Assembly: GCF_017854415.1 (NCBI RefSeq)
Contig: NZ_JAFMHR010000005.1
Span: 1-48,877, forward strand
Direction: 5' to 3'
Length of the DNA: 48,877 bases
Source: Yoonia sp.
GTDB taxonomy: Bacteria > Pseudomonadota > Alphaproteobacteria > Rhodobacterales > Rhodobacteraceae
Made by a program: the position numbers and the translations under genes. This document shows positions 23,257 to 42,531 of this stretch, piece after piece (position 1 is the first letter of the stretch; each line of letters opens with the position of its first letter). The notes beneath the pieces were generated by a model. It did not search any database. It was not told the origin of the DNA and saw only the letters and a list, made by a program, of their open reading frames with translations.

Positions 23257-23293
23257 TTGCCATAATGCAAAATTGGTAATATATTTTTACCAA
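23257..23293 (+). promoter_or_regulatory. glcD promoter with GntR-type operator
   Basis: A -35 TTGCCA (23257-23262), 17-bp spacer and -10 TATATT (23280-23285) precede glcD. The -10 lies within a 21-bp palindrome (23273-23293) with perfect 7-bp arms TTGGTAA / TTACCAA. The TTGGT...ACCAA half-sites fit operators of the FadR subfamily of GntR regulators. The same element, 19 of 21 bases identical and with the -10 at the same offset, lies before the GntR-family gene at 41718. Binding by that regulator is inferred. Confidence 0.72.
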
Positions 23294-23316
23294 ATAGAAG
23301 CTCAGGGAGTCGTCTC

Positions 23317-24750
23317 ATGGAAATGCCAACCCCAAATGCGCATGTTTTGATGCGCAAAGCACAAATTGTGGCGCGACTGGAAGAAGTGTTGCCGCGCGAC
23401 GCAGTGATTTCTGACGAGCGTGAAACCCAAGCCTATGAATGTGATGCGTTGACGGCATATAAGTGCCCGCCACTTTGCGCGGTGTTGCCCGCCAACACCA
23501 AAGAGGTCGCAGCCGTTCTGAAGATATGCCACGAAATGGGTGTGCCTGTTGTGCCACGCGGGTCTGGGACTTCTCTTGCTGGCGGTGCGCTGCCAACGGC
23601 TGACTGCGTGATCCTTGGCGTGGCCAAGATGAATGACGTGATCGAAACGAATTATGACGACCGCTATATTCGCGTCCAAACGGGCCGGACCAACTTGTCC
23701 GTGACCGGTGCGGTGGAAACCAACGGCTTCTTTTATGCGCCTGACCCGTCAAGCCAGTTGGCATGTGCGATTGCGGGTAATATCGCGATGAATTCGGGCG
23801 GTGCGCATTGCCTGAAATACGGTGTGACCACAAACAATCTAATGGGCGTGAAAATGGTCCTGATGGACGGTACCATCGTTGATATCGGCGGCGCGCATCT
23901 GGATGCAGGCGGTTTGGATATCTTGGGTGTGATCTGCGGGTCCGAGGGCCAGTTAGGTGTCGTCACCGAAGCGACATTGCGCATTTTGCACAAACCAGAA
24001 GGGGCGCGGCCAGTTCTCATGGGCTACGATAGCTCCGAAGTTGCAGGCCAAGTCGTGACCGACATTATCAAAGCGGGCATCTTGCCTGTCGCGATTGAAT
24101 TCATGGACCGCCCTTGCATCGAAGCAACCGAGAAATTCGCGAAGGCGGGCTATCCGATGTGCGAAGCATTGCTGATTGTCGAGGTCGAAGGATCGAACGA
24201 CGAAATCGATGCGCAGTTGAAACTGATCATGGAAATTGCAGCGAGCCACAATCCGGTAGAATTGCGCGAAGCCAAAGACGCCGAAGAGGCAGGTCGCATC
24301 TGGTTGGGACGCAAGTCCGCCTTTGGTGCGATGGGCCAGATCAACGATTACATGTGCCTTGATGGAACGATTCCTGTGTCGGCCCTGCCGCTGGTCCTTC
24401 GCCGGATCGGAGAGATGTCCAAAGAGTTCGGCCTTGATGTGGGCAATGTGTTCCACGCAGGCGACGGTAATATGCACCCGCTGATCCTGTTTGATGCCAA
24501 CAAACCCGGTGATCTGGAACTGTGCGAAGAATTTGGCGCAGAAATCCTCAAACTTTGTGTCGAAGTTGGCGGTTGCCTGACCGGCGAACACGGTGTGGGC
24601 ATTGAAAAGCGCGATCTTATGAATGTGCAGTATGATCCTGCCGATCTTGAAGCGCAGATGGCCATCAAGGACGTGTTTGATCCCGCATGGTTGCTGAACG
24701 CTGCAAAGGTCTTTCCGTTGGCCAACTCAGAGGCACGCCGCGCCGCATAG
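23317..24750 (+). CDS. glcD: Glycolate oxidase subunit GlcD (FAD-linked oxidase)
   Basis: 477-residue FAD-binding oxidoreductase of the GlcD/lactate dehydrogenase type, oxidising glycolate to glyoxylate as part of GlcDEF. The PP-loop VPRGSGTSLAGGALP (79-93) binds the FAD diphosphate, with PDPSSQLACAIAGNIAMNSGG as the second FAD contact. FHAGDGNMHP and GGCLTGEHGVGIEKRD form the C-terminal catalytic cap. Start supported by AGGGA 8 nt upstream. It is first in glcD-glcE-glcF, with the operator-containing promoter directly upstream and an extragenic repeat before glcE. Confidence 0.95.
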   Translation: MEMPTPNAHVLMRKAQIVARLEEVLPRDAVISDERETQAYECDALTAYKCPPLCAVLPANTKEVAAVLKICHEMGVPVVPRGSGTSLAGGALPTADCVILGVAKMNDVIETNYDDRYIRVQTGRTNLSVTGAVETNGFFYAPDPSSQLACAIAGNIAMNSGGAHCLKYGVTTNNLMGVKMVLMDGTIVDIGGAHLDAGGLDILGVICGSEGQLGVVTEATLRILHKPEGARPVLMGYDSSEVAGQVVTDIIKAGILPVAIEFMDRPCIEATEKFAKAGYPMCEALLIVEVEGSNDEIDAQLKLIMEIAASHNPVELREAKDAEEAGRIWLGRKSAFGAMGQINDYMCLDGTIPVSALPLVLRRIGEMSKEFGLDVGNVFHAGDGNMHPLILFDANKPGDLELCEEFGAEILKLCVEVGGCLTGEHGVGIEKRDLMNVQYDPADLEAQMAIKDVFDPAWLLNAAKVFPLANSEARRAA

Positions 24751-24809
24751 AAGGGGCTTTGCCCCCGCCCCTGATCGGGGCTCCCCCAGGATATTTTTAC
24801 TCGGAAGAA
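24751..24809 (+). repeat. REP-like extragenic element, copy A (glcD-glcE gap)
   Basis: Hairpin-forming unit: GGGGC TTT GCCCC, then GCCCC TGATC GGGGC, then CCCCC followed by a 21-base tail (24789-24809) from GGATATTT to CTCGGAAGAA. The tail matches copies B and C near 37.3-37.5 kb at 18 of 21 positions. The GGAAG at its end sits about 9 nt before the glcE ATG, so the repeat seems to supply the glcE ribosome binding site. Confidence 0.75.
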
Positions 24810-24816
24810 ACCCGAT

Positions 24817-25920
24817 ATGACCCCCAAGACCGAAGAAGAACTGGCCCAGATGATTAAAGGGGCCAATGGTCCTTTGCGCATTCAAGGCGGCGGCACGCGT
24901 CCGATTGGCAAGTGTGACGGCGAGACGCTAAGCACATCAGCGATAAGCGGGATTTCCCTTTATGAACCCGGTGCGCTGACAATCGTTGCAGGTGCAGGCA
25001 CTCCTGTGGCGGAGGTTGAAGCGGCATTGGCAAAGGACAATCAGCGTTTGGCGTTTGAGCCGATGGATCACCGCGCTTTGCTTGGCACCACGGGTACGCC
25101 CACGATGGGTGGGTTGGCGGCCGCGAATATATCAGGCCCGCGCCGCATTTCTGTTGGTGCCTGCCGTGACTTTATGCTGGGCGTCCGTTTTGTGGATGGA
25201 TCGGGCAATATCGTCAAAAACGGTGGCCGAGTGATGAAGAACGTGACCGGCTATGACTTGGTCAAGTTGATGACAGGTGCGTATGGCGCGCTTGGTGTTT
25301 TGACTGAAATCTCTTTGAAGGTTCTGCCAGAAGTAGAGACGACAGGCTCTGTCTTGTTGCATGGGCTTTCTGACGCAGATGCGGTTGCCGCCATGGCAGC
25401 CGCACTCGGGTCACCGTTCGAGGCCACAGGTTTGGCGCACTTCCCCAAGGGGCCAACTGGTGATCCGCTGACGATGATCCGTGTCGAAGGGTTTGAGAAG
25501 TCCGTGAATTATCGCGCCGAAAAACTGCGTGACCTTCTCAAGAAATTTGGCGAGGCCACTATTGAAACTAGCGACGCAGCCAGATGGCAAGGCGTTCGCG
25601 ATGTCGCAGCCTTTGCAGGTCAAGATGGAGATGTATGGCGCCTATCAGTCAAACCATCTGACGCCGCCGAACTTGTCGCCAAGATGGATGCCAAAGCCGT
25701 GCAATACGACTGGGGCGGTGGACTGGTCTGGGCAATGACCGACAGCGGCCGCGATTTGCGCGCAGCGATTGGCCCATTCGATGGCCACGCCACATTGATC
25801 CGCGGCACCGCAGACGTGCCAACTTTCCAACCAGAAGCCCCTGCCCTTGCAGCGATCACAAACGGCATTCGCGCCAAGTTCGATCCACGCGGCATCCTTA
25901 ACCCCGGGATCATGAGCTAA
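24817..25920 (+). CDS. glcE: Glycolate oxidase subunit GlcE (FAD-binding)
   Basis: 367-residue second flavin subunit of glycolate oxidase. IQGGGTRPIG (24-33) is the FAD loop; GTTGTPTMGGLAAANISGPRR is the conserved middle, and KNVTGYDLVKLMTGAYGALG is a strong GlcE signature. It is shorter than GlcD, lacking the long cap, as expected. The Shine-Dalgarno GGAAG comes from the end of the extragenic repeat. Its TAA overlaps the ATG of glcF by one base, so the subunits are made in step. Confidence 0.94.
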   Translation: MTPKTEEELAQMIKGANGPLRIQGGGTRPIGKCDGETLSTSAISGISLYEPGALTIVAGAGTPVAEVEAALAKDNQRLAFEPMDHRALLGTTGTPTMGGLAAANISGPRRISVGACRDFMLGVRFVDGSGNIVKNGGRVMKNVTGYDLVKLMTGAYGALGVLTEISLKVLPEVETTGSVLLHGLSDADAVAAMAAALGSPFEATGLAHFPKGPTGDPLTMIRVEGFEKSVNYRAEKLRDLLKKFGEATIETSDAARWQGVRDVAAFAGQDGDVWRLSVKPSDAAELVAKMDAKAVQYDWGGGLVWAMTDSGRDLRAAIGPFDGHATLIRGTADVPTFQPEAPALAAITNGIRAKFDPRGILNPGIMS

Positions 25921-27239
25921 TGCAAACCACATTCACCCCAGAGCAACTGACCGATCCCGCGATTGAACGGTCTAACGAAATTCTTCGCACCTGCGTGCAT
26001 TGCGGATTTTGCACAGCGACATGCCCAACCTATCAGGTGCTTGGCGATGAACTCGACAGCCCGCGTGGACGGATTTACCTGATCAAGGACATGCTTGAGA
26101 ATAACCGCAAGCCGGACGCCAAAACGGTTAAACATATTGACCGCTGCCTGTCCTGCCTTGCTTGCATGACGACCTGCCCGTCTGGCGTCCACTATATGCA
26201 TCTGGTCGATCATGCCCGTGCCTATATCGAAAAGAACTATGACCGCCCCTTTTCTGACCGCGCATTGCGTTGGGTTCTGGCGCGAATTTTACCTTATCCG
26301 ATGCGGTTTCGTGTGGCCTTGCTCGGTGCCAAAATTGGGCGTCCGTTTGCCCGTTTTATGCCAGATGCCCGCCTGCGTGCGATGTTGGAAATGGCCCCGA
26401 AAACAATCCCTCCGGTCAGCCGCAATGATGATCCGCAGACCTTTCCGGCGCAAAACAAAACCATGCGTGTGGCGCTTATGACGGGCTGTGCCCAAAAGGC
26501 GCTGAACACTGATATCAACGATGCAACGATCCGTTTACTGACCCGTCTGGGTGCCGAAGTCGTCGTGGCCGAAGGTGCAGGCTGTTGTGGCGCGTTGACC
26601 CACCACATGGGCAAGGAAAACGAAAGCCACGCGACAGCCGCGAAAAACATCAAGGCGTGGTGCAAAGAGATCGATAATGGCGGTCTAGAGGCCATTGTGA
26701 TCAATACGTCTGGTTGCGGCACAACCGTCAAAGACTATGGACATATGTTCCGCAACGATCCGCTGGCCGCTGATGCGGCACGGGTTTCTGCTATCGCGAT
26801 GGATGTCTCTGAGATCTTGATGAAGCTGGATATGCCCGAAGGTGACCATAAGGACACCAAAGTTGCCTACCACGCGGCTTGTTCGCTGCAACACGGCCAA
26901 CAGATCAAGACCTTTCCTAAGGACTTGCTGAAAAAGGCTGGGTTCACGGTTCTTGAACCGGCAGACAGCCATCTGTGCTGTGGTTCAGCGGGAACATATA
27001 ATCTGATGCAGCCCGAGATTTCCAAACAGTTAAAGGCGCGCAAAGTGCAAACCCTCGAGGCGCTGACGCCTGACATCATCTCGGCTGGTAACATCGGCTG
27101 CATGATGCAAATCGGTGGCGGAACGGATGTGCCGATTGTACACACCGTTGAATTGCTGGATTGGGCGACGGGTGGGCCCCAGCCTCCTGCACTTACCGCG
27201 CCGGGCAAGCGTGAGCCGCAAATCCCGATCTTGCGCTAG
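25920..27239 (+). CDS. glcF: Glycolate oxidase iron-sulfur subunit GlcF
   Basis: 439-residue subunit passing electrons from the flavins to the quinone pool. Two ferredoxin-type 4Fe-4S motifs: Cys25, Cys28, Cys31, Cys35 and Cys76, Cys79, Cys82, Cys86, each closing with CP. Two CCG domains follow: GAGCCGALTHHMG with its upstream CAQKALN, and HLCCGSAGTYNLM with HAACSLQHGQQ. It is the third gene of the operon; 39 bp separate it from the protease gene, which may be read through. Confidence 0.95.
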   Translation: MQTTFTPEQLTDPAIERSNEILRTCVHCGFCTATCPTYQVLGDELDSPRGRIYLIKDMLENNRKPDAKTVKHIDRCLSCLACMTTCPSGVHYMHLVDHARAYIEKNYDRPFSDRALRWVLARILPYPMRFRVALLGAKIGRPFARFMPDARLRAMLEMAPKTIPPVSRNDDPQTFPAQNKTMRVALMTGCAQKALNTDINDATIRLLTRLGAEVVVAEGAGCCGALTHHMGKENESHATAAKNIKAWCKEIDNGGLEAIVINTSGCGTTVKDYGHMFRNDPLAADAARVSAIAMDVSEILMKLDMPEGDHKDTKVAYHAACSLQHGQQIKTFPKDLLKKAGFTVLEPADSHLCCGSAGTYNLMQPEISKQLKARKVQTLEALTPDIISAGNIGCMMQIGGGTDVPIVHTVELLDWATGGPQPPALTAPGKREPQIPILR

Positions 27240-27278
27240 CGCCACAATGCTGCCCCAAGTGTCGGCCAGTTTGACAAG

Positions 27279-28103
27279 ATGAAGATTGGACTGACTCTCA
27301 AACGGCTTGGCCTTTGTCTCGCTTTCACTTGCGCCCTGAGTTTTGGGGCGCAGGCCCAACAAAGCGAGCTGGTACCTTTTCAAACTATGCAAGACAGCGA
27401 AGGTTGGGATGCAGTTGGTCGTCTTGATATTCGGGGCAAAGGGTTTTGCACGGCGGCACTGATCCGCGAACGGCTGATCCTGACAGCGGCCCACTGCCTT
27501 TACGACACGGACGGCACACGCATTGATCCCGGGCGGTTCGAATTCCGCGCGGGTTTGCGCGACGGGCGCGCAGAGGCAGAACGCAGCATATCGCGAACCA
27601 TTCCTCATCCCGCATACAGTTTCAAAGAAGACGCGACAGCGGCCCCGGCCGTCGCGCTTGATATTGCAGTGCTAGAGCTAAACCATCCTATTCGGATGAC
27701 CCGTGTACGCCCATATCAGATCGCCCCGCGCCCGTTGGCAGGTGACGAAGTGCGGGTGGTGTCTTATGGCCGTGGCCGTTCTGACGCGCCGAGCATGCAA
27801 GAGAGTTGCCGCGTAATTGGTCATGATCTTGGGGTCATTGTGATGACATGCGATGTTGAATATGGCTCAAGCGGGTCGCCGGTCTTTATGGTCGTGAACG
27901 GTGAAACACGCATCGCATCTGTCGTATCCGCGATGGCGCAATTGGATGGAGAGCGTGTTGCATTGGGCACGTCACTGGCAGGTCCGCTAAGTGATCTGTT
28001 GTCACATTACGCGACATTGGGACCCGCACGCGTGAATGGCACCCAGCGCTTTCTTGGTGGCGGTCAACGCAATGATACAGGCGCGAAGTTCATCCGCCCC
28101 TGA
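27279..28103 (+). CDS. Secreted trypsin-like (S1 family) serine protease
   Basis: 274-residue exported protease. Signal peptide about 1-27 (SFGAQAQ). The catalytic triad is complete: His72 in LTAAHC, Asp128 in LDIAVLEL and Ser198 in YGSSGSPV. Cys57-Cys73 flanks the histidine as in chymotrypsin-fold enzymes, with Cys177-Cys191 as a second likely disulfide. No PDZ domain is present, so it is not a DegP type; it resembles the short trypsin-like proteases common in Rhodobacterales. The substrate is unknown. Confidence 0.88.
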   Translation: MKIGLTLKRLGLCLAFTCALSFGAQAQQSELVPFQTMQDSEGWDAVGRLDIRGKGFCTAALIRERLILTAAHCLYDTDGTRIDPGRFEFRAGLRDGRAEAERSISRTIPHPAYSFKEDATAAPAVALDIAVLELNHPIRMTRVRPYQIAPRPLAGDEVRVVSYGRGRSDAPSMQESCRVIGHDLGVIVMTCDVEYGSSGSPVFMVVNGETRIASVVSAMAQLDGERVALGTSLAGPLSDLLSHYATLGPARVNGTQRFLGGGQRNDTGAKFIRP

Positions 28104-28107
28104 CCCT

Positions 28108-28136
28108 CTTGAAAGACGCGAAATTCCTTCCCACAT
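28108..28136 (+). promoter_or_regulatory. Candidate heat-shock (RpoH) promoter of hsp20
   Basis: CTTGAAA (28108-28114) followed after 15 nt by CCCACAT (28130-28136). This resembles the sigma-32 pattern CTTGAAA-N(13-15)-CCCCATnT and lies directly before the UTR of a small heat-shock gene. The match at -10 is imperfect. Confidence 0.5.
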
Positions 28137-28145
28137 AACAGTCAT

Positions 28146-28227
28146 CGGGATGCCATTGATGGGTCCCGTGTCGAACGGCCTGTCCCCTATGGGAAGGCTA
28201 CATATTGTTATCGCTTAAGAAAAGGAT
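28146..28227 (+). ncRNA. Possible ROSE-like RNA thermometer in the hsp20 5' UTR
   Basis: The leader carries three successive hairpins. The first is CGGGA/TCCCG (28146-28150/28164-28168) with an inner CCA/TGG pairing. The second is GCCT(g)TCCC/GGGAAGGC (28178-28198) with a CTAT loop. The last contains UCGCU (28211-28215), which matches the U(U/C)GCU motif that opposes the Shine-Dalgarno in ROSE elements, facing AAGGA (28222-28226), with an apposed G-G. This layout fits ROSE thermometers of alphaproteobacterial hsp20 genes. The fold is by eye only. Confidence 0.48.
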
Positions 28228-28234
28228 GACCCAA

Positions 28235-28702
28235 ATGCGTGCATTTGACCTAACACCACTTTACCGCGCCACCGTTGGCTTTGACCAAGTTGCTGATCTG
28301 ATGGATCGCGCCCTTGCCAATGATGTCGGCCAGACGACCTATCCACCTTACAATATCGAGAAAACAGACGACGACGCATGGCGTATTTCCATCGCCGTTG
28401 CTGGGTTCTCTGACGATGATCTTGCGATCGAAGTCAAGGATCGTGGCCTGAATGTCACCGGCCGCAAATCCGCTGACGAGGCAGAACGTACCTACCTGCA
28501 CCGTGGCATCGCGACCCGCGCGTTTGAACGCCGCTTTCACTTGGCCGACCACGTGAAAGTCACCGGAGCGGGCCACGAAAATGGCATGCTGCACATAGAC
28601 CTGACCCGCGAAGTGCCAGAGGCACTGAAACCGCGCCGCATCGCTATTTCTTCGGATACGAAGAAAGATGCGAATTTGGTTGAGGCGAAGTCGGTTAACT
28701 AA
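28235..28702 (+). CDS. Small heat-shock protein, Hsp20/IbpA family
   Basis: 155-residue alpha-crystallin-type holdase. The N-terminus MRAFDLTPLYRATVGFDQV is IbpA-like; the crystallin domain runs from about YNIEKTDDDAWRISIAVAGF to GMLHIDLTREVPE, with HRGIATRAFERRFHLADHV in the middle. The C-terminal PRRIAI carries the I/V-x-I/V-type motif used in oligomer assembly. ATG 28235 lies 8 nt after AAAAGGA; ATG 28226 directly abuts that sequence. A heat-shock-like promoter and a structured leader lie upstream and a strong terminator follows, so it appears to be a stand-alone heat-inducible gene. Confidence 0.92.
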   Translation: MRAFDLTPLYRATVGFDQVADLMDRALANDVGQTTYPPYNIEKTDDDAWRISIAVAGFSDDDLAIEVKDRGLNVTGRKSADEAERTYLHRGIATRAFERRFHLADHVKVTGAGHENGMLHIDLTREVPEALKPRRIAISSDTKKDANLVEAKSVN

Positions 28703-28725
28703 GTTTCGACTGTTGTGAGAATGAG

Positions 28726-28755
28726 CGCGTCACCTGAAAGGGTGGCGCGTTTTTT
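28726..28755 (+). terminator. Rho-independent terminator of hsp20
   Basis: 9-bp stem CGCGTCACC (28726-28734) / GGTGGCGCG (28741-28749; one G-T pair) with a TGAAAG loop, followed by T6 (28750-28755). Confidence 0.9.
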
Positions 28756-28784
28756 GTTGGGCGCAAAACGCTTGGATCATAAGC

Positions 28785-29234
28785 TTATAATTGGGCTACC
28801 CGCATGATATCGTCCAAGAATGCTTGAACTGTCTTTTCCGGACTATCAAAAACACCTGAAATTGCTAAATCAATCGCATCCCAGTGTGAAGCAAATGGTG
28901 CCAAGAATTCAGGAGCATCCACTTTTTGTGAAAGCACATAGAGGTGTTTCGCTAAGTTTGATGCTTCGGCGGGTGACAAACTCTGAACAGACGACAATCG
29001 TTCAAACAGTTTCAAGACAACTGAGCGGAAATCAGCATTCCTTGACAGTATGTTCAAATGCGAAAGTGCATCAGGAGCACCCTTGGCAAGGGATAAGTCA
29101 ATCAGCGCGTCACTCAAAGTATCTGAGCATATGATTACCTGATCCGCCCAACTGACAGCGTCTGACAAATCGGCGTATCCCCAAGAAATCGCCAGAGCAA
29201 GCGCGCCTGCTTCTATTTCATGAGCTTCAGTCAT
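28785..29234 (-). CDS. Hypothetical protein downstream of polA
   Basis: 149-residue soluble, mostly helical protein with no recognised domain. It is acidic, with segments ALALAISWGYADLSDAVSWA, CSDTLSDALIDLSLAKGAP and FASHWDAIDLAISGVFD. Hand counts over two 60-base lines give 43-45% G+C, against 57% for a neighbouring polA line, suggesting a different origin. ATG 29234 was chosen; the frame extends to 29321 into polA without gain. It lies 40 bp after polA on the same strand and could share its transcript. The short length, composition and isolated location might fit an immunity-type or recently acquired gene, but nothing in the sequence shows this. Confidence 0.6.
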   Translation of the reverse strand: MTEAHEIEAGALALAISWGYADLSDAVSWADQVIICSDTLSDALIDLSLAKGAPDALSHLNILSRNADFRSVVLKLFERLSSVQSLSPAEASNLAKHLYVLSQKVDAPEFLAPFASHWDAIDLAISGVFDSPEKTVQAFLDDIMRVAQL

Positions 29235-29274
29235 TTGAGACTGCTGCCCCGCGTCAGGCAACCTTGCGAACACA

Positions 29275-32067: not shown

Positions 32068-32120
32068 GGTGGACCCCCTAAGATGCGTTTCCAACACCTA
32101 TACGCGGGGGCCACCCCGGT

Positions 32121-33032: not shown

Positions 33033-33120
33033 GACATGCTCCTTAACTGGTTAAGAAGCATATAGCGCAGGCAGTGCTGTGCGAAAACGCGCAGCAGCGA
33101 ACAATCTGTGTGCGGACGTG

Positions 33121-33300
33121 TTAGACTTTGCCTTCAAAATCCTTGTGCACCAACTTGGCATCACAATAGGGGCATTCAATCCAGCCATGCTCACTAGGAA
33201 TTTGCAGCCAGACACGCGGATGACCCAACGCGCCGCCGCCGCCATCACAGGCCACGCGCCACTCATGAACGATCTTTGTCTCGGGTGCGGGTGTGGACAT
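33121..33300 (-). CDS. Zinc-finger domain protein (zf-CHCC, NDUFS6-like)
   Basis: 59-residue protein with a Cys-His-Cys-Cys zinc site: VACDGGGGALGHPRVWLQ supplies Cys and His, ECPYCDAKL the last two Cys. This is the zf-CHCC fold shared with the mitochondrial complex I accessory subunit NDUFS6; alphaproteobacterial homologues are stand-alone small proteins thought to relate to complex I. The start at 33300 (MSTPAPETK) gives the normal size; the frame open to 33372 reaches across the next gene's start region. Confidence 0.85.
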   Translation of the reverse strand: MSTPAPETKIVHEWRVACDGGGGALGHPRVWLQIPSEHGWIECPYCDAKLVHKDFEGKV

Positions 33301-33386
33301 GATTTCCCCTGTCTGGTTGCCGTGGGCCAGTGCCCAGCTTAGATGAGGGTGAACATACCGCAGGTGCGGCACGGGGGAAAGACGGC

Positions 33387-34316: not shown

Positions 34317-34365
34317 CGCCCCAACTTCTTTTTCCAAGATAAACTTCCGCCTGAGGCAGCGCAGT

Positions 34366-34728
34366 TTAATCTGCCAACATGCGCCCCAAAGGACGACCGC
34401 CCAAAATATGCATGTGATAATGCGGCACATCTTGCACGCCGTGCACCCGCGTATTGGACACGCCGCGAAAGCCGTCCACTAGACCTGAAATACGGCAAAC
34501 CTCTGCAACCGCTTGGAAAAACCCAGCTTGCTCTTCTGCAGATGCATCACGGGCAAAGTGGTCCAAACTCATATAGGCACCTTTGGGAATGACCAAAACA
34601 TGCACCGGAGCTTGGGGCGCGATGTCCTCGAATGCCAATGCAAAATCGTTCTCGTAGACTGTCCTGTTCGGAATTTCACCGCGCAGGATTTTGGCAAAAA
34701 TGTTCTGATCGTCGTAAATAAATTCCAT
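34366..34728 (-). CDS. HIT family nucleotide hydrolase/transferase (HINT-like)
   Basis: 120-residue histidine-triad protein. The active-site HYHMHILGG (103-111) carries the three histidines; IFAKILRGEIP near the N-terminus and HVLVIPKGAYMSL are conserved HINT features. It probably hydrolyses adenosine phosphoramidates. GAGGA 6 nt before ATG 34728 fixes the start, 8 bp after the stop of the glycosyltransferase gene, so the two are probably co-transcribed. Confidence 0.92.
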   Translation of the reverse strand: MEFIYDDQNIFAKILRGEIPNRTVYENDFALAFEDIAPQAPVHVLVIPKGAYMSLDHFARDASAEEQAGFFQAVAEVCRISGLVDGFRGVSNTRVHGVQDVPHYHMHILGGRPLGRMLAD

Positions 34729-34736
34729 CGGGTTCC

Positions 34737-36314
34737 TCAATCAACAAAAAGATGGGGGGTCTGTGCAAGCGTCAGTGCAACTTCGGGCGAGACCCCCAAA
34801 AACTTAACCAAAGCCGCAGCATTTTCGTCCACACTGGCCGTTTCACGCATGCGGGCAGCATCTGCAAACTCCGCGTCGCGGATCGCTTCACGTTCATAAA
34901 TCATATCATTGTAGATCGTCGGCAAAAGGCGCGCGATTGTATCTTCGCTGGTCTGTTCACCTGCAAGACCCACGCGTTTGGCATGCCCGACAAGGTAGTC
35001 GTCATCAAAACTGCATTCAATTTCAAGCAGCCTGACAGTTGCGCGATCCTCGTGGAAATCGGACATCAAATCAAGGCTCGCTGTATCAAGACAAATCACC
35101 AATCGGTCGCTGCCATAATGACTAAACAACATCCGCATCAAGGCACGACGATGCCTGCTGCGCTTACGCAATGATGTCTCAATCCCCCCCAGATCAGGGA
35201 GCGTAGAGTGATCCTCGTTAAACAGGTATTCCAATGCAGGCACATTCGTCTGCGCATTGATTGCTGCGACCAAACGCTTGGCCACATGCCATTGCTTGCA
35301 AGCTATGATCATTAACTCTCGGTCACGCCCCAGCTTTGTATCACGCTCCCAAAACCGTGGACCAAAGCGGCGTCCGACACGGCCACGTTCGGTTAAAAAA
35401 GAAAAGAGGTTCCGCCCTTCGTCCGAGATATCGAATGCCATCCGCTGACTGGCATAAAGGGCGCCCAAATTCTCGCGCAACGCCTGTGCTTCGACGCTGA
35501 TCTTGCGGGCAAATAATCCGTTTTGCCCCAAGAGAAGATCGTGGTGATCATTATAAAACGTGACCGGCATTCCGTAGTCAGAGAACATCAAGAATGTCAG
35601 CGTGCGGTTTTCGATCTCACGGCCGGGGACCAGATGACGGACAAGCGTCTGGAAAAACGTCTCATCGGGAATCCATGTTGTCTTAAAGAACCGCATGACA
35701 TCGCGGCGCTCGACGGTAAAAGCAAGCACGGCCTCAATCGTTTGGCGTCGCAAGCACCACCATTGACTGCCAATCATGACTTGCAGATCGCTTGGGATCT
35801 GCAGTGTAATCTTGAGCTTTTCCTGAAACCCCAAGGCTGCGTAAAAGCGCCATTTCTGCGTCCGTTCATTGAAATAATGGCGGTAGATCAAGCGTTCTTG
35901 GCGGAAACCCGTTTTGATCCAGTTGCTATCAAAAAAGTCGTAACTCTCGATGTAATCCACATCGTTGTGATCCAACATCTGATGGGCGAACTTTGCCGAT
36001 TTGATCGGCATACAATCGCCGGAAACCATATAGAAGTGGGTAGCGCGGGCAAATGCGTCCGTCGCGGCTTCAACTGCGTTTAATGTCGCTTGAACAAGGC
36101 TCCATTCACCCCAACCACATTTAACGCGGCGCTTGGCAAAGACAACATTTGGGTTGCCGGACAACCCGTCTTGAATAGTACGGTAGTCGTCTGCCGAAGC
36201 AGAGGCATCGAAGTGGATAGCAATATAGTCGCCTGCGGCCGTCAACTGATTGGCCTGCGTCACGATCGCCGCAGGGTTCTTATGACACAATAGAATAAAG
36301 GCTATTCTTGCCAT
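34737..36314 (-). CDS. GT14 beta-1,6-N-acetylglucosaminyltransferase with DUF5928-like C-terminus
   Basis: 525-residue protein. The N-terminal ~300 residues match the core-2/I-branching family: ARIAFILLCHKNP start, IHFDASASADDY, GWGEWSLVQATLNAV, THFYMVSGDCMPIKS, GSQWWCLRRQT and WIPDETFFQTLV. No signal peptide or transmembrane segment is present, so it acts in the cytoplasm or at the inner face of the membrane. The C-terminal ~220 residues are a separate, Arg-rich domain that I associate with DUF5928 of Rhodobacterales proteins; its role is unknown. ATG 36314 is chosen because the family N-terminus begins there; upstream in-frame sequence to 36539 has no similarity to it. It is divergent from the sulfotransferase, suggesting a shared glycan pathway. 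Confidence 0.82.
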   Translation of the reverse strand: MARIAFILLCHKNPAAIVTQANQLTAAGDYIAIHFDASASADDYRTIQDGLSGNPNVVFAKRRVKCGWGEWSLVQATLNAVEAATDAFARATHFYMVSGDCMPIKSAKFAHQMLDHNDVDYIESYDFFDSNWIKTGFRQERLIYRHYFNERTQKWRFYAALGFQEKLKITLQIPSDLQVMIGSQWWCLRRQTIEAVLAFTVERRDVMRFFKTTWIPDETFFQTLVRHLVPGREIENRTLTFLMFSDYGMPVTFYNDHHDLLLGQNGLFARKISVEAQALRENLGALYASQRMAFDISDEGRNLFSFLTERGRVGRRFGPRFWERDTKLGRDRELMIIACKQWHVAKRLVAAINAQTNVPALEYLFNEDHSTLPDLGGIETSLRKRSRHRRALMRMLFSHYGSDRLVICLDTASLDLMSDFHEDRATVRLLEIECSFDDDYLVGHAKRVGLAGEQTSEDTIARLLPTIYNDMIYEREAIRDAEFADAARMRETASVDENAAALVKFLGVSPEVALTLAQTPHLFVD

Positions 36315-36444
36315 TGGATGCTCAAGGCCTTGTTCACACGGGTTGCCGCTATGATTGACATAGCGCGAACAGACATTGAAGTTACAGTGTTTCTTTGGTC
36401 TTAATTGGGCAAAGGCCAGAGCGGTCGACAACGAGGGTAATAGC

Positions 36445-37266
36445 GTGGCGAGTTTTCCGGGAACATGGATGACCAAAAGCGAAAGCATGGTGTACCGCGT
36501 AGTGCCCAAATGCGCGTGCTCTTCGATTGGGCAGATCATGTACTATTCAGATCACGGGCGTTTTTTTGACGGCGACATCCATGACGCCAAGACGGATATC
36601 CACAAATGGGCCATCGACAAAAGCCAGCCGCTGATCGGCAAAAACGTCCGCGACCATTCGAGCTATACATTCACCTGTGTCCGCAACCCTTACACGCGGA
36701 TATTGTCGTCGTTTTTTGACAAGATTTGTGGTATTCAGCGCAACGGCAAATACTATCGCGGCAACCTTGTCCCGCTTCTGGTCCAAAAATACGGTATTGA
36801 AGTGGGTGATCCGGACAACGGGTTCGAGTTCGACCAAATCGAGAGTTTCCGTCGCTTTCTGCTATTCGCCCGCGACACCATCCGTTGGCGTCGCCCGATG
36901 GAACCAGACATCCATTGGTCAGCTATGTCCGGCCATATCTCGACGTTCATCGTGAACGGCGGGCGATATGACAAAATTTTCTGGACCGAAGATTTCAATA
37001 CAGGCATGCAAGACGTGCTCGACAATACTCAAACAGCCCATCCCATAGATCTTGCTACAATCCCGCGCTTCAACGAAAGCGAAGGACATGGACCAAAGCG
37101 CGCGCATCCAGTGGCCGACTATTTCGATGACCTGTCGATGCATCTTGTCTATGAGATGTATAAAAAGGACTTCCGTATCTTCAAATATGACTTTGAAAAT
37201 CCGGCCAATAAAATGCCCATCGGTGACATCGACCTTGATGAGGTTCACGCAAAACTTGGTCATTAA
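36445..37266 (+). CDS. Sulfotransferase family 2 protein
   Basis: 273-residue PAPS-dependent sulfotransferase resembling carbohydrate (HNK-1/chondroitin-type) enzymes. The 5'-phosphosulfate loop is PKCACSSI (21-28) and the 3'-phosphate motif RNPYTRILSSF (80-90). KRAHPVADYFDDLSMHLVYEMYKKDF at the C-terminus (with the usual Y...DF pattern) completes the family layout. GTG 36445 was preferred: GAGGG lies 7 nt upstream and MASFPGTWM matches related N-termini as I recall them; ATG 36469 is the alternative. It would transfer sulfate to a polysaccharide, plausibly one built with the divergent GT14 enzyme. Confidence 0.82.
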   Translation: MASFPGTWMTKSESMVYRVVPKCACSSIGQIMYYSDHGRFFDGDIHDAKTDIHKWAIDKSQPLIGKNVRDHSSYTFTCVRNPYTRILSSFFDKICGIQRNGKYYRGNLVPLLVQKYGIEVGDPDNGFEFDQIESFRRFLLFARDTIRWRRPMEPDIHWSAMSGHISTFIVNGGRYDKIFWTEDFNTGMQDVLDNTQTAHPIDLATIPRFNESEGHGPKRAHPVADYFDDLSMHLVYEMYKKDFRIFKYDFENPANKMPIGDIDLDEVHAKLGH

Positions 37267-37274
37267 AGCCGCAA

Positions 37275-37335
37275 GGGGGCTGTCTGCCCCCTCGGCCTAC
37301 GGCCTCTCCCCCGAGGATATTTAGGCTCGGAAGAA
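37275..37335 (+). repeat. REP-like extragenic element, copy B
   Basis: Hairpin GGGGGC TGTCT GCCCCC (37275-37291), then GGCC TAC GGCC nested in CCTCGG/CCGAGG (37290-37316), then a 21-base tail (37315-37335) starting GGATATTTAG and ending CTCGGAAGAA. The tail is repeated exactly, inverted, at 37460-37480 and with three changes in copy A. Confidence 0.78.
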
Positions 37336-37417
37336 GTCGGATTTACGAACGATTAACCAGCGTTAGATATGAATAACTGCGGCACAGGCAGGGATGCCGA
37401 TGGCCGTCGACGAAGAA

Positions 37418-37448
37418 ACCGCTGTTGCGCCTGAGTGCCAACAGCGGT
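37418..37448. repeat. 9-bp inverted repeat between copies B and C
   Basis: ACCGCTGTT (37418-37426) and AACAGCGGT (37440-37448) with a 13-nt loop. No T-run follows on either strand, so it is not an obvious terminator. It may be an operator or a structured RNA. Confidence 0.55.
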
Positions 37449-37459
37449 GGATTCCGCTA

Positions 37460-37480
37460 TTCTTCCGAGCCTAAATATCC
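37460..37480 (-). repeat. REP-like extragenic element, inverted tail copy C
   Basis: Exact 21-base inverted copy of the tail of copy B, 124 bp away, followed (on its own strand) by no hairpin of the A/B type but preceded by a CCGGCGGGG segment. It appears to be a partial copy. Confidence 0.75.
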
Positions 37481-37570
37481 CCGCCGGAGGCATTAAAGTT
37501 CCTTTTGCCTCGACAGTCACAACGACCGCGTTAGTTCCTTGAAATAGCAAGCAAACGAGGGACGTAGCAC

Positions 37571-38278
37571 GTGTCAGTGGTTTTGATCTTAGGAAGTGGT
37601 CCAAACGTTGTTGCTAGCCGTGACTGGCAGCGCGATCCGTTCGACCGCATTGTTGCCATCAACAACGCATGGGCAGTGCGTCCTGATTGGGATGATCTTA
37701 TTCACCCAGATGATTTTCCTCTGGCCCGGATGCCACTGGTTTTAGCACGTCATCAACGGATTATTCGCGCATCGGACTATGTTCCCTTGCAAAACAATTA
37801 TGGTGGTTTTGTCTATGCGGGCGGAACTATGGCATTCACGGCATGCTATTGGGCCTTGGCCGCGCTAAAGCCAAAGGTCATCGCAGTGATGGGCTGTGAC
37901 ATGGTTTATGATAACGCCAGCAAGACCCATTTTTATGGCCAAGGAACCGCTGACCCACTCAGGCAAGATGTTACCTTGCGATCACTCGAAGCTAAATCGG
38001 CCCGCCTTATAGCGCTGGCCGCGCGCCAAGGCTGTGCAATGGTCAACCTATCAACCGATCCCAGCCGGTTGGTTTTCCCGCGTTCCAAGATTGAAGACTT
38101 GGCCACGACACTGCCATGTCCAATGCACGTGCAAGCAATTGACAATGCCCTCGCCCAAGAGGCAACGCTCGACTACTACGTCCCGTCCGGCAAGTACTGG
38201 AAAGAAGAAGGCAGATTTGACGCTAGCGCGATTGACGCGCTGGATGCGCTTTGGCTTACAGCAGTCCCTGCGCTTTAA
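37571..38278 (+). CDS. Rossmann-like protein, possibly glycosyltransferase/DUF115-like
   Basis: 235-residue protein without a firm family. The N-terminus VVLILGSGPNVVASRDW and IVAINNAW resemble the G-x-G-P nucleotide-sugar loop and the following strand of MptE/DUF115 and GT42 sialyltransferase folds. GGFVYAGGTMAFTACYWA, VIAVMGCDMVYD and a late acidic/aromatic tail (DYYVPSGKYWKEEGRF) are the other conserved-looking parts. GTG start with GAGGG 9 nt upstream. It follows the sulfotransferase on the same strand after the repeat-rich gap and overlaps the end of the convergent adenosine kinase gene by 23 bp. A sugar-modifying role is suggested only by location and fold. Confidence 0.55.
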   Translation: MSVVLILGSGPNVVASRDWQRDPFDRIVAINNAWAVRPDWDDLIHPDDFPLARMPLVLARHQRIIRASDYVPLQNNYGGFVYAGGTMAFTACYWALAALKPKVIAVMGCDMVYDNASKTHFYGQGTADPLRQDVTLRSLEAKSARLIALAARQGCAMVNLSTDPSRLVFPRSKIEDLATTLPCPMHVQAIDNALAQEATLDYYVPSGKYWKEEGRFDASAIDALDALWLTAVPAL

Positions 38279-39248
38279 AGATCGCTTTAAGGTCGGCTTC
38301 GGGACGTGCCCCGATGTGGCTGATCACCTCGGATGCGGCGAGGTTGCCCATCTTTCCGCAAACTTCCAAATCGTGACCATTGCTAAGCCCCCAAAGGAAC
38401 GCCCCCGCGAACAGATCACCCGCGCCAGTCGCGTCTACGATATCAGTCGGCACAGCGGGAACATGCCAGCGCTGGCCTTCTGCCAAGATATGCACGCCGT
38501 GTTCACTGTCCGTGCAAGCAACGATGGCCACATCAGACGCGGCTTGCGCTAATGCACCGTCGAAGTCTTCTGTCTGGTACATCGACAGCATTTCAGCGCG
38601 GTTGCAGAACAGCAGGTCAACGTGATCGCGGACCATATCGCGGAACGCATCGCGGTGGCGCTCAATGCAAAACGGATCAGACAGCGTAATCGACACACGT
38701 CCGCCAGCACCCTTGCAAGCATCAATCGCTTTGGCAAAAGCGGCTTTACTGTCAGGCCCGTCAAAGCGGTAGCCCTCAAGATAAATCCATTCGGCCTCCG
38801 CCATCTGGTCCGTATCAATGTCGTCTGGCGACAAAAACTCTGTCACCCCAAGATAGGTGTTCATCGACCGCTCCCCGTCGGGCGTGACGATCACAATGCA
38901 GCGGCCGGTTTCAGCTTCTTCCGACTTGGGCGCGAGGGTGGTTTCATAAACAGCCCCTTGGGCGCGCAGGTCGTGCGCGAAAATCGCGCCAAGCTGGTCG
39001 TCTTTGACCTTGCCAACGTAGGCTGTCCGCCCACCCAAATGCGCAACGCCTGCAATTGTGTTGGCCGCAGACCCACCACTGATTTCTTTGGCAGGACCAA
39101 CACGGGAATACAGATTAACCGCCCGGTCCATATCGATCAGCTGCATGATGCCTTTTTGCACGCCTGCCTCAGCCAGAAACGCATCTTCGGCACGTGCCAA
39201 GACATCCACCATCGCATTGCCGATGCCGACAACCTGAAATTTTTTCAT
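38256..39248 (-). CDS. Adenosine kinase (PfkB family)
   Basis: 330-residue sugar/nucleoside kinase. The N-terminal GIGNAMVDVLA, GGSAANTIAGVAHLGG (substrate loop) and C-terminal DATGAGDLFAGAFLWG (anion hole and catalytic Asp) are PfkB signatures. The overall layout matches the alphaproteobacterial adenosine kinase group, which salvages adenosine to AMP. The start overlaps the nth stop (ATGA), so the two are translated together. The end overlaps the convergent Rossmann-like gene by 23 bp. Confidence 0.88.
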   Translation of the reverse strand: MKKFQVVGIGNAMVDVLARAEDAFLAEAGVQKGIMQLIDMDRAVNLYSRVGPAKEISGGSAANTIAGVAHLGGRTAYVGKVKDDQLGAIFAHDLRAQGAVYETTLAPKSEEAETGRCIVIVTPDGERSMNTYLGVTEFLSPDDIDTDQMAEAEWIYLEGYRFDGPDSKAAFAKAIDACKGAGGRVSITLSDPFCIERHRDAFRDMVRDHVDLLFCNRAEMLSMYQTEDFDGALAQAASDVAIVACTDSEHGVHILAEGQRWHVPAVPTDIVDATGAGDLFAGAFLWGLSNGHDLEVCGKMGNLAASEVISHIGARPEADLKAIFKAQGLL

Positions 39249-39889
39249 AGGTTTTTATCCTCAAACATACATAGGTCGCGGACCAAACAGGCCGCGCATT
39301 TAGGTTTTCGCGCAACGCAAACGTAGCGGCCATGCAAGATCATCCAGTGATGCGCATGAAGCTGAAAATCAGCAGGCACATGGTCTTCGATCGCGCGTTC
39401 TACCGCGTCGACATCTTTTCCGGGCGCAACACCACTGCGGTTTCCAAAACGGAAAATATGCGTATCGACTGCCTGTGCGGGCTGACCCCACCACATATTC
39501 AGAACCACATTCGCAGTTTTGCGGCCAACACCGGGTAACGACTGTAGCGCAGCGCGGGAATTAGGAACCTCGCCACCGTATTCATCCACCAAAAGCTGGC
39601 TCATCTTGATGACGTTTTTCGCTTTTTGGCGGAACAGTCCGATAGTCTTGATGTGGTCTGTCACACCCTCAAGCCCCAGATCGAGCATTTTTTGCGGCGT
39701 GTCAGCGATTTTGAACAGTGCGCGTGTGGCTTTGTTCACGCCCGCATCGGTCGCTTGCGCCGACAGGGCGACCGCGACGACAAGCGTGTAAACATTCACA
39801 TGCTCAAGCTCGCCCTTTGGTTCGGCCTCTGCAGCCCGGAACCGTTCAAAGATCTCGCGGACCGTATGATAATCAAGCTGTTTTGCCAT
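39245..39889 (-). CDS. nth: Endonuclease III
   Basis: 214-residue DNA glycosylase/AP lyase removing oxidised pyrimidines. Helix-hairpin-helix LPGVGRKTA (118-126) with catalytic Lys124, catalytic Asp142 in AVDTHIFR, and the 4Fe-4S cluster Cys191-x6-Cys198-x2-Cys201-x5-Cys207. All are offset by four from the E. coli numbering. ATG 39889 is used; the frame extends to 39940 without family similarity. It is divergent from an alkylation-repair gene, making a small base-repair cluster. Confidence 0.95.
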   Translation of the reverse strand: MAKQLDYHTVREIFERFRAAEAEPKGELEHVNVYTLVVAVALSAQATDAGVNKATRALFKIADTPQKMLDLGLEGVTDHIKTIGLFRQKAKNVIKMSQLLVDEYGGEVPNSRAALQSLPGVGRKTANVVLNMWWGQPAQAVDTHIFRFGNRSGVAPGKDVDAVERAIEDHVPADFQLHAHHWMILHGRYVCVARKPKCAACLVRDLCMFEDKNL

Positions 39890-39983
39890 GAAAACGGGTA
39901 TGCCCTTATGCACCAAAGGGGGCAAGCGCCAGATGCGCAATTTTCGGGTCGCGCGGTGCGCGACGACCCCCTAAGTTCACCTT

Positions 39984-40832
39984 ATGGAACAAAAAGAAAC
40001 ATATCATTACCAAGTGATGCGCCGCGCAATCGAGGCAATCGATGCCGCAGGTGACAGCCCAATGACTTTGGCCGATCTGGCCGCGGATATGAACATGAGC
40101 CCTGCACATTTTCAGCGGCTTTTTTCGTCGTGGGTCGGTGTGTCGCCAAAACGCTATCAGCAATATCTAACCCTCGCGCACGCGAAAACCCTGCTCCGCG
40201 ACCGCTTTACCACGCTGGACACAGCCCATGCTGTTGGCCTTTCAGGCAGCGGGCGTCTGCACGATCTTTTCGTGCGCTGGGAAGCAATGAGCCCCGGTGA
40301 CTATGCGCGCGACGGCGCCGGACTCGCGATTTATTGGGGCTGGTTCGAAAGCCATTTTGGCCCGGCTTTAGTGATGGGCACCACACGTGGCATCTGCGGA
40401 TTGGCATTCGCTGCAGAGGCCGGTCCAGAACCCGCAATGACAGACCTGAAATCACGCTGGCCAAAAGCGACGTTTATCGAAGATCCCAGCCGGTTGCGCG
40501 ATTGGGCAACAGCCGCCCTTGGTATGACGGGCGAAACCCAGTTGCACATGATCGGCGCACCCTTCCAGCTTCAGGTGTGGGAAGCACTGTTAACCATACC
40601 TTCGGGGCATGTCACAACCTATTCCGAAATCGCGCAATCCATCGGGAAACCCAAAGCCGTGCGTGCCGTTGGAACCGCTGTCGGGCGCAATCCGGTAAGT
40701 TGGCTGATCCCTTGCCACCGTGCCCTGCGCAAGTCGGGTGCACTGGGCGGGTATCACTGGGGGCTGCCCGTCAAGCGGGCGATGCTGGCGTGGGAATCTG
40801 CGCGCGTAGACGCGCAGTCACCTCAGGTGTGA
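39984..40832 (+). CDS. AraC-type HTH / methylated-DNA-cysteine S-methyltransferase fusion
   Basis: 282-residue fusion: an AraC-type helix-turn-helix (about 10-105: TLADLAADMNMSPAHFQRLF and GRLHDLFVRWEAMSPGDY) joined to an O6-alkylguanine-DNA alkyltransferase domain. That domain has HVTTYSEIAQSIGKPKAVRAVG and the active-site PCHRA with the acceptor cysteine. The N-terminal Ada phosphotriester domain with its four-Cys zinc site is missing, so it should repair O6-methylguanine but cannot sense methylphosphotriesters as E. coli Ada does. It is divergent from nth across about 95 bp. Start at ATG 39984; its Shine-Dalgarno is weak. Confidence 0.92.
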   Translation: MEQKETYHYQVMRRAIEAIDAAGDSPMTLADLAADMNMSPAHFQRLFSSWVGVSPKRYQQYLTLAHAKTLLRDRFTTLDTAHAVGLSGSGRLHDLFVRWEAMSPGDYARDGAGLAIYWGWFESHFGPALVMGTTRGICGLAFAAEAGPEPAMTDLKSRWPKATFIEDPSRLRDWATAALGMTGETQLHMIGAPFQLQVWEALLTIPSGHVTTYSEIAQSIGKPKAVRAVGTAVGRNPVSWLIPCHRALRKSGALGGYHWGLPVKRAMLAWESARVDAQSPQV

Positions 40833-40846
40833 TGATTGGGCGGAAG

Positions 40847-40875
40847 TTGACCTATTGTCGGCACGATATTGGATA
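40847..40875 (+). promoter_or_regulatory. Candidate sigma-70 promoter of the OmpA-like gene
   Basis: TTGACC (40847-40852), 17-bp spacer, TGGATA (40870-40875), about 75 nt before the ATG of the lipoprotein gene. The -35 is strong and the -10 weaker. Confidence 0.45.
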
Positions 40876-40951
40876 ACACTGCGCAAAGGTTTATAGAAAG
40901 AGGTATGAAGCCTGCGCGACATGCGCACCCATATCAAATGGAATCATAACC

Positions 40952-41608
40952 ATGACTTTTAGAAAATTCCCTCTTGTTCTTGCCGCATCTGCAATGACGT
41001 TTGTTGCAGCTTGTGACGCTAACGGACCAAACCAAAGCCAGAACACACAACAAGGTGCTATCCTTGGTGCTTTGGGTGGTGCTGCAATTGGCGCAATTGC
41101 AAACCGCAATGACGACACCCGTGGCCGCAATCAGGCGGCTTTGGCGGGCGCTCTGTTGGGGGCCGGTGCCGGTGCCGCAATTGGCAACAACCTCGACAAG
41201 CAAGCCGAAGAATTGCGCCGCTCGCTACGCAGTGACGTGGGCGTGTCCAACAACGGTAGCAACCTTGTTGTGATCCTAAGCCAAGACCTGCTGTTCGCAA
41301 CCAACAGTACGACCGTCTCTGGTACATCGCAGAACGAATTGCTGACTGTGGCGAATTCGCTGAACCGCTACCCCAACACGACTGTGAACGTCATCGGCCA
41401 TACGGATAACGTGGGCGACGCGTCATTCAACCAAGGTCTGTCGGAGCGCCGCGCACAAGCCGTCGCCGGTATCTTGCTAAACGGTGGCGTTGCCAATTCT
41501 CGCGTCCGTGCCATTGGCGCAGGTGAAAACCAGCCGATCGCATCGAACCTGAATGCCTCTGGCCGTCAGATGAACCGCCGTGTTGAGATCATCATCACAC
41601 CAAACTAA
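40952..41608 (+). CDS. OmpA family lipoprotein with glycine-zipper domain
   Basis: 218-residue outer-membrane lipoprotein. The signal sequence ends in FVAACDANG (lipobox Cys at about 21). A Gly/Ala-rich zipper (GAILGALGGAAIGAIANR and GALLGAGAGAAIGNNLDKQ) spans about 35-75. An OmpA C-terminal peptidoglycan-binding domain follows, with VIGHTDNVGDASFNQGLSERRA and NRRVEIIITPN. It should anchor the envelope to peptidoglycan. Shine-Dalgarno GGAA 8 nt upstream. A strong terminator lies 25 bp downstream. Confidence 0.93.
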   Translation: MTFRKFPLVLAASAMTFVAACDANGPNQSQNTQQGAILGALGGAAIGAIANRNDDTRGRNQAALAGALLGAGAGAAIGNNLDKQAEELRRSLRSDVGVSNNGSNLVVILSQDLLFATNSTTVSGTSQNELLTVANSLNRYPNTTVNVIGHTDNVGDASFNQGLSERRAQAVAGILLNGGVANSRVRAIGAGENQPIASNLNASGRQMNRRVEIIITPN

Positions 41609-41632
41609 GCGATCATCACTGATTGCCAAATG

Positions 41633-41663
41633 AAGGGGTCGCAGCCATGCGGCCCCTTTCTTG
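41633..41663 (+). terminator. Rho-independent terminator of the OmpA-like gene
   Basis: 11-bp stem (AAGGGGTCGCA 41633-41643 / TGCGGCCCCTT 41648-41658; one G-T pair), loop GCCA, followed by a T-rich TCTTGTTG. Confidence 0.85.
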
Positions 41664-41700
41664 TTGTGGACACCCCATGTTGGTCATATAATTTTACCAA
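41664..41700 (+). promoter_or_regulatory. gntR-family gene promoter with self-operator
   Basis: -35 TTGTGG (41664-41669), 17-bp spacer and perfect -10 TATAAT (41687-41692). The -10 lies inside a 21-bp imperfect palindrome (41680-41700; arms TTGGTCA / TTACCAA). It differs from the glcD operator at 2 of 21 positions and carries the -10 at the same offset (seven bases in), so autorepression is likely. Confidence 0.72.
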
Positions 41701-41717
41701 TAATATGTGGAAATTGA

Positions 41718-42485: not shown

Positions 42486-42497
42486 ACAGTTGCCCAC

Positions 42498-42531
42498 GAA
42501 AAAGCCCGACTGCAAATACTGCAATCGGGCT
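42498..42531 (-). terminator. Terminator of the F0 ATP synthase operon
   Basis: Stem AGCCCGA (42503-42509) / TCGGGCT (42525-42531), one C-A mismatch, then TGCA/TGCA around an AATAC loop. On the minus strand it is followed by T5 (plus-strand A5 at 42499-42503). The plus side has no T-run, so it mainly serves the minus-strand operon, though it could slow the convergent gntR transcript. Confidence 0.8.

Follow-up and report, generated by a model that had tools for sequence, protein, structure and literature searches.

Two operator-like sites in the window

The 48,877-nucleotide stretch of a Yoonia sp. draft genome analysed here (assembly GCF_017854415.1, contig NZ_JAFMHR010000005.1; called the window below) carries the glycolate oxidase genes glcDEF (23317-27239) and, 18 kb away, a gene for a GntR-type regulator with an FCD domain (Table 1). 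Upstream of glcD and of the regulator gene there is a 21-bp palindrome of the form TTGGT-N11-ACCAA (the dyad), TTGGTAATATATTTTTACCAA and TTGGTCATATAATTTTACCAA, respectively. A preliminary description of this DNA had reported the two palindromes to be identical at 19 of 21 positions, and both their sequences and their coordinates proved correct; the differences are at dyad positions 6 and 12 only. The promoter arrangement proposed there was borne out by direct reading: in both promoters the -10 hexamer begins after seven bases of the dyad, at dyad position 8, the -35 hexamer lies 17 bp upstream of it, and the dyad starts about 10 bp past the -35 element.

Exact copies of TTGGT-N11-ACCAA occur twice in the window, compared with a mean of 0.02 in 100 dinucleotide shuffles, none of which contained two. 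The genome-wide search that had been suggested located the exact dyad at 10 places in the 3.12-Mb draft genome (three in a backwards control), and only the window pair has a core of A and T. Judged from the comparisons described below, the two palindromes very probably serve as operators for the product of the regulator gene (41718-42485), a GntR protein of the FCD type.

Table 1. Position and nature of the sites and genes discussed in the text (window coordinates unless a locus, L, is given)
Feature	Position	Strand	Remarks
glcDEF promoter	23257..23285	+	-35 TTGCCA 23257-23262, 17 bp, -10 TATATT 23280-23285; by direct reading
Operator dyad TTGGT-N11-ACCAA, glcDEF promoter	23273..23293	+	overlaps -10 box; predicted from sequence
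glcD, FAD-linked subunit of glycolate oxidase	23317..24750	+	best match, under its NCBIfam cut-off
glcE	24817..25920	+	best match, under its NCBIfam cut-off
glcF	25920..27239	+	above NCBIfam GlcF cut-off
Terminator-like hairpin, 5' of regulator promoter	41632-41659		
Regulator promoter	41664..41692	+	-35 TTGTGG 41664-41669, 17 bp, -10 TATAAT 41687-41692; by direct reading
Operator dyad TTGGT-N11-ACCAA, regulator's own promoter	41680..41700	+	overlaps -10 box; predicted from sequence
FadR-subfamily (GntR + FCD) regulator, "clade A"	41718..42485	+	domains and tree
Putative operator site before lldD, and lldD (FMN L-lactate dehydrogenase) gene	L345:1501-1522 and 1537-2697		own genome, contig 69
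Dyad before malate synthase G gene	L452:2549-2569, L456:2456-2476, L467:2502-2522		three other genera; divergent to large open reading frame
Dyad before D-lactate dehydrogenase gene	L455:2455-2475		one genus (G056)
Dyad before DctP-type (TRAP) solute-binding protein open reading frame	L453:2525-2545		22 bases before the frame; G176, single case

Conservation of the sites in the genus

Loss of the palindromes from close relatives that keep both genes had been named in advance as the finding that would refute a shared operator. The genus was represented by 25 genomes, the own genome counted in. The glcD dyad was kept in all 25 (24 exact, one with one mismatch) and the regulator dyad in 24 (15 exact, six with one mismatch, three with two). 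The regulator dyad of locus L065 has one mismatch, and there is an assembly gap (a run of N) inside the regulator gene of this locus; the dyad is lost in L064. In 17 of the 25 genomes glcD and the regulator gene are separated by 16-20 kb, and in the remaining eight the genes are either far apart on the same contig (54 kb in G316, 236 kb in G299, 2.1 Mb in G315) or on different contigs (five genomes). Because G299, G315 and G316 retained both sites despite the separation of the genes, linkage is ruled out as the source of the similarity between the two dyads.

Coupling of the dyad to the regulator gene in the family

The family sample consisted of 295 genomes from 294 genera. At a cut-off of E 1e-30, 228 genomes had a match to the regulator and 67 had none; nine of the 228 matches are weaker than 1e-70 and may represent other subtypes, and the regulator-less status of 47 of the 67 genomes was deduced by subtraction from the list of matches. 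GlcD was found at E 1e-140 in 268 of the 295 genomes and is retained in 56 of the 67 that lack the regulator. A search of whole genomes with the strict pattern TTGGT-N2-W7-N2-ACCAA, which involves no choice of rows, gave hits in 74 of the 295 genomes (five in the backwards control), i.e. in 70 of the 228 regulator-bearing and in four of the 67 regulator-less genomes. The loci around these last four sites (L018, L019, L028 and L034, from G090, G033, G248 and G136) contain no glc or regulator homologue, nor does the locus around the pattern site in L038, which falls within an open reading frame.

Upstream windows of 160 nt were then compared, with mismatch limits of our own choice, for the best-scoring genomes among the 228 (68 genomes for glcD, 68 for the regulator promoter, 54 for lldD) and for regulator-less genomes (the 30 best-scoring of 56 for glcD, 14 for lldD). 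With the regulator present, the glcD dyad was exact in 65 of 68 genomes and within one mismatch in all 68; without it, the corresponding numbers were 0 and 3 of 30. Shuffled glcD upstream sequences, in which only the base make-up was preserved (as in all promoter shuffles), matched within one mismatch in about 0.35% of cases. Fisher's test for the association gives 4e-21, a value to be read with the relatedness of the genomes in mind, since they are not independent. A GlcD tree was built from 48 regulator-bearing and 30 regulator-less rows; among the 48, 18 loci had been located through the dyad, and G256 is included twice. On this tree the distribution of the regulator needs 18 changes, at least six of them forced by well-supported branches, and the absences are scattered; the repeated changes mean that the coupling between dyad and regulator has been replicated. 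In some regulator-less promoters the dyad looks decayed; in L285, for example, the left arm is kept (TTGGTTATTTGTATCTGCAAA), and the dyad is intact in the sister row L011. A tblastn search with seven FCD proteins, covering at most 1.5 kb on either side of glcD, detected no FCD regulator at any of the 30 loci that lack the regulator.

The other half-site spacings between 0 and 20 were compared with N11. Within one mismatch, none of them individually reached more than 5 of 68 for glcD, 3 of 68 for the regulator promoter or 7 of 54 for lldD. N3 and N2 sites, the usual ones for this subfamily, were found at this limit before 1 and 2 of 68 glcD genes and in 1 and 1 of 68 regulator promoters, and this rarity rules out an ordinary FadR-type site in either promoter.

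The dyad of the regulator's own promoter is exact in 11 of the 68 genomes, within one mismatch in 36 and within two in 54, a limit reached by about 4% of shuffles; two of the 54, in L219 and L230, look like chance matches by place and letters. The consensus of the regulator-promoter dyads, gTGGTCATATnaTTTGACCAA, is distinct from that of the glcD promoters, TTGGTTATATTtttTTACCAA. As far as can be judged from such sites, autoregulation is common and not universal. A TTG exactly 17 bp before the hexamer that starts at dyad position 8 is present in 47 of 68 glcD rows and in 39 of 53 regulator rows, and this conserved placement makes the promoter reading valid in most of the genera sampled.

The site upstream of lldD and further candidate targets

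When up to three mismatches were allowed, a search of the own genome identified GCGGTAATAATTAATTACCAAT on contig 69 upstream of lldD, the gene for an FMN-type L-lactate dehydrogenase, the 21-base dyad ending 15 bases 5' of the lldD start. The other nine matches looked like chance, all having three mismatches (backwards control: two forward, two reverse). Three relatives of this LldD score above the cut-off of the NCBIfam L-lactate dehydrogenase subfamily. The own-genome lldD lies downstream of a trpA-like open reading frame, as judged by eye.

Within the genus set the lldD dyad is present with at most one mismatch in 23 of 25 genomes and with at most two in all 25, although the L371 site in the latter count is not credible by eye. 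In the family, 42 of 54 regulator-bearing genomes have it at no more than one mismatch (30 of them exactly), compared with 1 of 14 genomes that lack the regulator. The core of the lldD dyad is not made up of A and T only; the N11 distance thus belongs to the operator and not merely to the -10 box. The operator before lldD makes this gene a candidate for control by the regulator, and probably one regulator controls the use of glycolate and lactate alike. The idea of an autoregulated regulator of glycolate oxidation, as originally put forward, is therefore supported but has to be modified: the glcD dyad does track the regulator, but the presence of this operator at lldD extends the predicted regulon beyond glycolate oxidation, and autoregulation is not shared by all genomes.

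Further dyads were seen in a few genera. They precede the malate synthase G gene in G003, G056 and G231 and a D-lactate dehydrogenase gene in G056, predicted targets that are in keeping with the same chemistry. In G264 a dyad stands before an lldD-like gene (35% identity), and in G176 before a gene for a solute-binding protein, possibly part of a hydroxy-acid transporter. The dyad of L454 looks like a chance match.

The regulator protein

The assignment of the regulator to the FadR type in the preliminary description agrees with the domain searches: the GntR (68.4 bits, cut-off 27) and FCD (82.5 bits, cut-off 24.3) domains are both above the Pfam cut-offs, giving the architecture of the FadR subfamily. 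Matches to the NCBIfam equivalogs PdhR (194 bits, cut-off 330; the best NCBIfam match), LldR (172, 311) and GlcC (150, 301) were below cut-off. The protein is 38% identical to Paracoccus denitrificans GlcR, 35% to PdhR, 32% to LldR and 30% to GlcC, and its recognition helix reads VSRPSLREA, exactly as in E. coli PdhR. On a tree of 37 rows it belongs to a clade of 22 rows (clade A, support 98/99), separate from the GlcR type (five rows, 91/93), which rules out its membership in the GlcR clade. Only these five rows represent the GlcR type, and FadR, GlcC (truncated at its end in the locus used) and LldR are on long branches, so the order of the groups is unsure. The predicted structure of the protein was of low confidence (mean predicted local distance difference test score 63.8, predicted template modelling score 0.50) and was not used.

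Sites of the FadR subfamily are described as TKGT/ACMA boxes with GT and AC 3 nt apart, or 2 nt in some groups, and the exceptions named include NanR and BioR (PMC4494728). The dyad does contain such boxes, 11 nt apart in place of the 3 or 2 nt that are typical, though not obligatory. The preliminary description had already remarked that this spacing is wider than 3 nt, which agrees with the published values; a deviating spacer was noted for alphaproteobacterial GlcC in 2016 (PMC5343134). A model in which two dimers bind has been reported for NanR (PMC8012715). On the N11 dyad two footprints of the N3 type would overlap in the core, and for this reason we prefer one wide-set dimer to two dimers.

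Comparison with GlcR and other known regulators

GlcR of P. denitrificans (Pden_4400) is reported to repress glcDEF and to bind a promoter fragment of 156 bp, from which glycolate, unlike glyoxylate, releases it (PMC11323563). No operator for GlcR turned up when the main text of that report was searched by word. We located P. denitrificans GlcR by its position beside glcD in strain HAMBI_2443, not via the Pden_4400 record. In the glcR-glcD gaps of eight loci, TGGT-N11-ACCA was present with at most one mismatch in all eight and exactly in seven, whereas any other spacing reached at most four. Six of these loci are from Paracoccus and two from Sulfitobacter plasmids, and they amount to few independent cases; for L448 and L450, two records without annotation, the limits of the gap were set by analogy and overlap the GlcR gene by 8 bases, and the divergent FCD gene was confirmed. 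We infer that the N11 dyad of the gap, GTGGTCTGAAAATTATACCAA in P. denitrificans, is the site bound by GlcR, a prediction made from sequence.

GlcR and the window regulator are alike in being FCD-type GntR regulators with a similar N11 dyad at glcD; control of glcDEF is reported for GlcR and predicted for the window regulator. They differ in several respects: the GlcR gene adjoins glcD whereas the window regulator is 18 kb away, the half-site is mostly GTGGT for GlcR and TTGGT for the window regulator, and the window dyad also precedes lldD, whose control is not mentioned in the parts of the report that concern GlcR (PMC11323563). Genome G173 has regulators of both types, and upstream of the GlcR-type gene (L306) there is an N11 dyad, TTGGTAAAATGTTTTGACCAC. 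A Paracoccus fistulariae plasmid (L131) carries glcD without a neighbouring FCD gene, and has an N11 dyad with two mismatches, CCGGTAAATTTATCTTACCAA, before glcD; three other plasmid-borne glcD genes without such a neighbour (L132, L133 and L135) had no dyad at -60 to -20.

PdhR of E. coli controls pyruvate dehydrogenase, and its half-sites are TTGGT/ACCAA. It resembles the window regulator in the letters of the recognition helix and as the best NCBIfam match, albeit under cut-off, but its GT and AC are 3 nt apart rather than 11 (PMC4494728). LldR of E. coli is likewise an FCD regulator, of the lldPRD operon (PMC10272880); unlike the window regulator, it is encoded inside the operon that it regulates, and its site has the 3-nt spacing (PMC4494728). 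A comparative study of 2016 described LldR regulons in 13 taxonomic groups and GlcC motifs that differ in spacer length between alphaproteobacteria and beta-/gammaproteobacteria (PMC5343134). Alphaproteobacterial GlcC, as represented in RegPrecise, is similar to the window regulator in being a GntR protein of glycolate genes with a deviating spacer (PMC5343134), and part of the regulon described here may already stand in that database as GlcC or LldR.

Proposed mode of action

The sites, their geometry at glcD and at the regulator gene, their conservation and their coupling to the gene are observations; for direct binding, repression and the inducer we infer the following. The regulator would bind the wide dyad, which overlaps the -10 box at these two promoters, blocking access of RNA polymerase to glcDEF and to its own gene, and would act at lldD as well. 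A C2/C3 alpha-hydroxy acid, glycolate and/or L-lactate, would release it, with the consequence that the oxidation systems for glycolate and lactate would be induced together. Taken as a whole, an autoregulated repressor of glcDEF and lldD that acts through a wide dyad and is released by an alpha-hydroxy acid has, in our view, a high probability. That the regulator acts as a repressor is likely in itself, and we lean towards glycolate or lactate as the inducer, judging from the family of the protein and the content of its predicted regulon only.

It is conceivable, if unlikely, that the same protein binds the dyads as an activator or as a dual regulator. One of its named relatives, E. coli GlcC, is an activator of glcDEF (PMC11323563), a precedent that counts in favour of this alternative. 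However, at glcD and at the regulator gene the -10 box lies within the dyad, and an operator in that position normally blocks the polymerase. The retention of glcD in 56 of the 67 regulator-less genomes is easier to understand with a repressor; moreover, the Paracoccus GlcR has been reported to be a repressor (PMC11323563).

Another possibility is that the dyad is bound by a different factor, such as the LysR-type protein encoded at 45632-46510, and that the GntR gene is merely one of its targets. LysR boxes follow a T-N11-A rule, which the dyad fits, and relatives of this protein were present in 64 of 64 regulator-bearing genomes (only such genomes were covered), with 54-75% identity for the best matches and in many cases no more than about 10 kb from the regulator gene; these facts weigh on the side of the LysR protein. 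But the gap upstream of its own gene (46511-46613) has no dyad at up to two mismatches, the sites at glcD and at the regulator gene lie on the -10 box and not upstream of -35, the presence of the dyad follows the GntR gene, and the N11 dyad recurs at the eight glcD loci that have a divergent FCD gene of the GlcR type next to them. We consider binding by the LysR protein to be very improbable.

Several results do not support, or weaken, the idea of a repressor acting through the dyad. The regulator-bearing genomes compared were the best-scoring ones and not a random choice. A consensus promoter scan of 41580-42700 did not flag the regulator promoter, 14 of the 68 regulator promoters have no dyad at two mismatches, and the own-genome lldD dyad has two mismatches in its arms. 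Among the 54 lldD promoters 12 are without a site at one mismatch and six at two. Before glcD, other spacings do occur at up to two mismatches (N10 in 42, N1 in 33, N2 in 28 and N20 in 27 of 68), although never exactly. In the window there is also no excess of dyads at this limit (13, compared with a shuffle mean of 19.6), from which it follows that the signal lies in the exact arms and not in degenerate matches.

This last result, together with the fact that the core is partly a -10 box, where some likeness between promoters is to be expected, could be taken to mean that the palindromes are a product of chance or of shared A/T-rich promoter sequence, with no regulator involved. In the glcD promoters of the family, however, the arms are near-invariant (1.8 to 2 bits per position in TTGGT and ACCAA, with a preceding A and a following T that slightly extend the dyad), while the flanks drift; the arms are kept at lldD, where the core is not of A and T only, and they are mostly gone where the regulator is gone. 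The chance explanation has next to no probability and is ruled out by the genus conservation, the coupling in the family, the promoter geometry and the lldD sites, in favour of an operator bound by the FCD regulator.

The broadest interpretation of these results, for which we see about equal chances either way, is that a distinct clade of FCD repressors, different from GlcC, GlcR, PdhR and LldR and present in most of the sampled genera of Rhodobacteraceae, joins glycolate and L-lactate oxidation through one operator, with PdhR-like half-sites 14 bp apart from centre to centre instead of 6 and a dimer arrangement that is not known from the FadR subfamily. If this is true, the regulon of a few genera also includes malate synthase G or D-lactate dehydrogenase, and the operator at glcD and at the regulator's own gene holds the -10 box inside its spacer. 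The spacing raises the question how a FadR-type dimer reaches half-sites that are 8 bp farther apart than usual. Rhodobacteraceae are among the marine consumers of glycolate. Algae are reported to release glycolate in very large amounts, which feeds heterotrophic bacteria (PMC11323563). The only glycolate-oxidase regulator of this order with experiments that we found in the literature is the Paracoccus GlcR, and no work on joint control of glcDEF and lldD by an FCD regulator in Rhodobacterales was recognised by title or the beginning of the abstract among the papers listed in searches of one open library. The present results point to a separate, widespread regulator clade with its predicted operator, extend the N11 prediction to GlcR, and include lactate oxidation in the proposed regulon.

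Neighbouring genes

On the other side of the operator region from glcD there is a divergently oriented DUF599 gene (22528-23226, minus strand). Of the 19 loci within L011-L040 that were located by the pattern and contain glcD, 13 have a homologue in the same place. The LysR-type gene at 45632-46510 is divergent to an azoreductase-like gene. Directly downstream of the regulator gene, and convergent with it, are the F0F1 ATP synthase genes for a, b and b' (42557-44812, minus strand).

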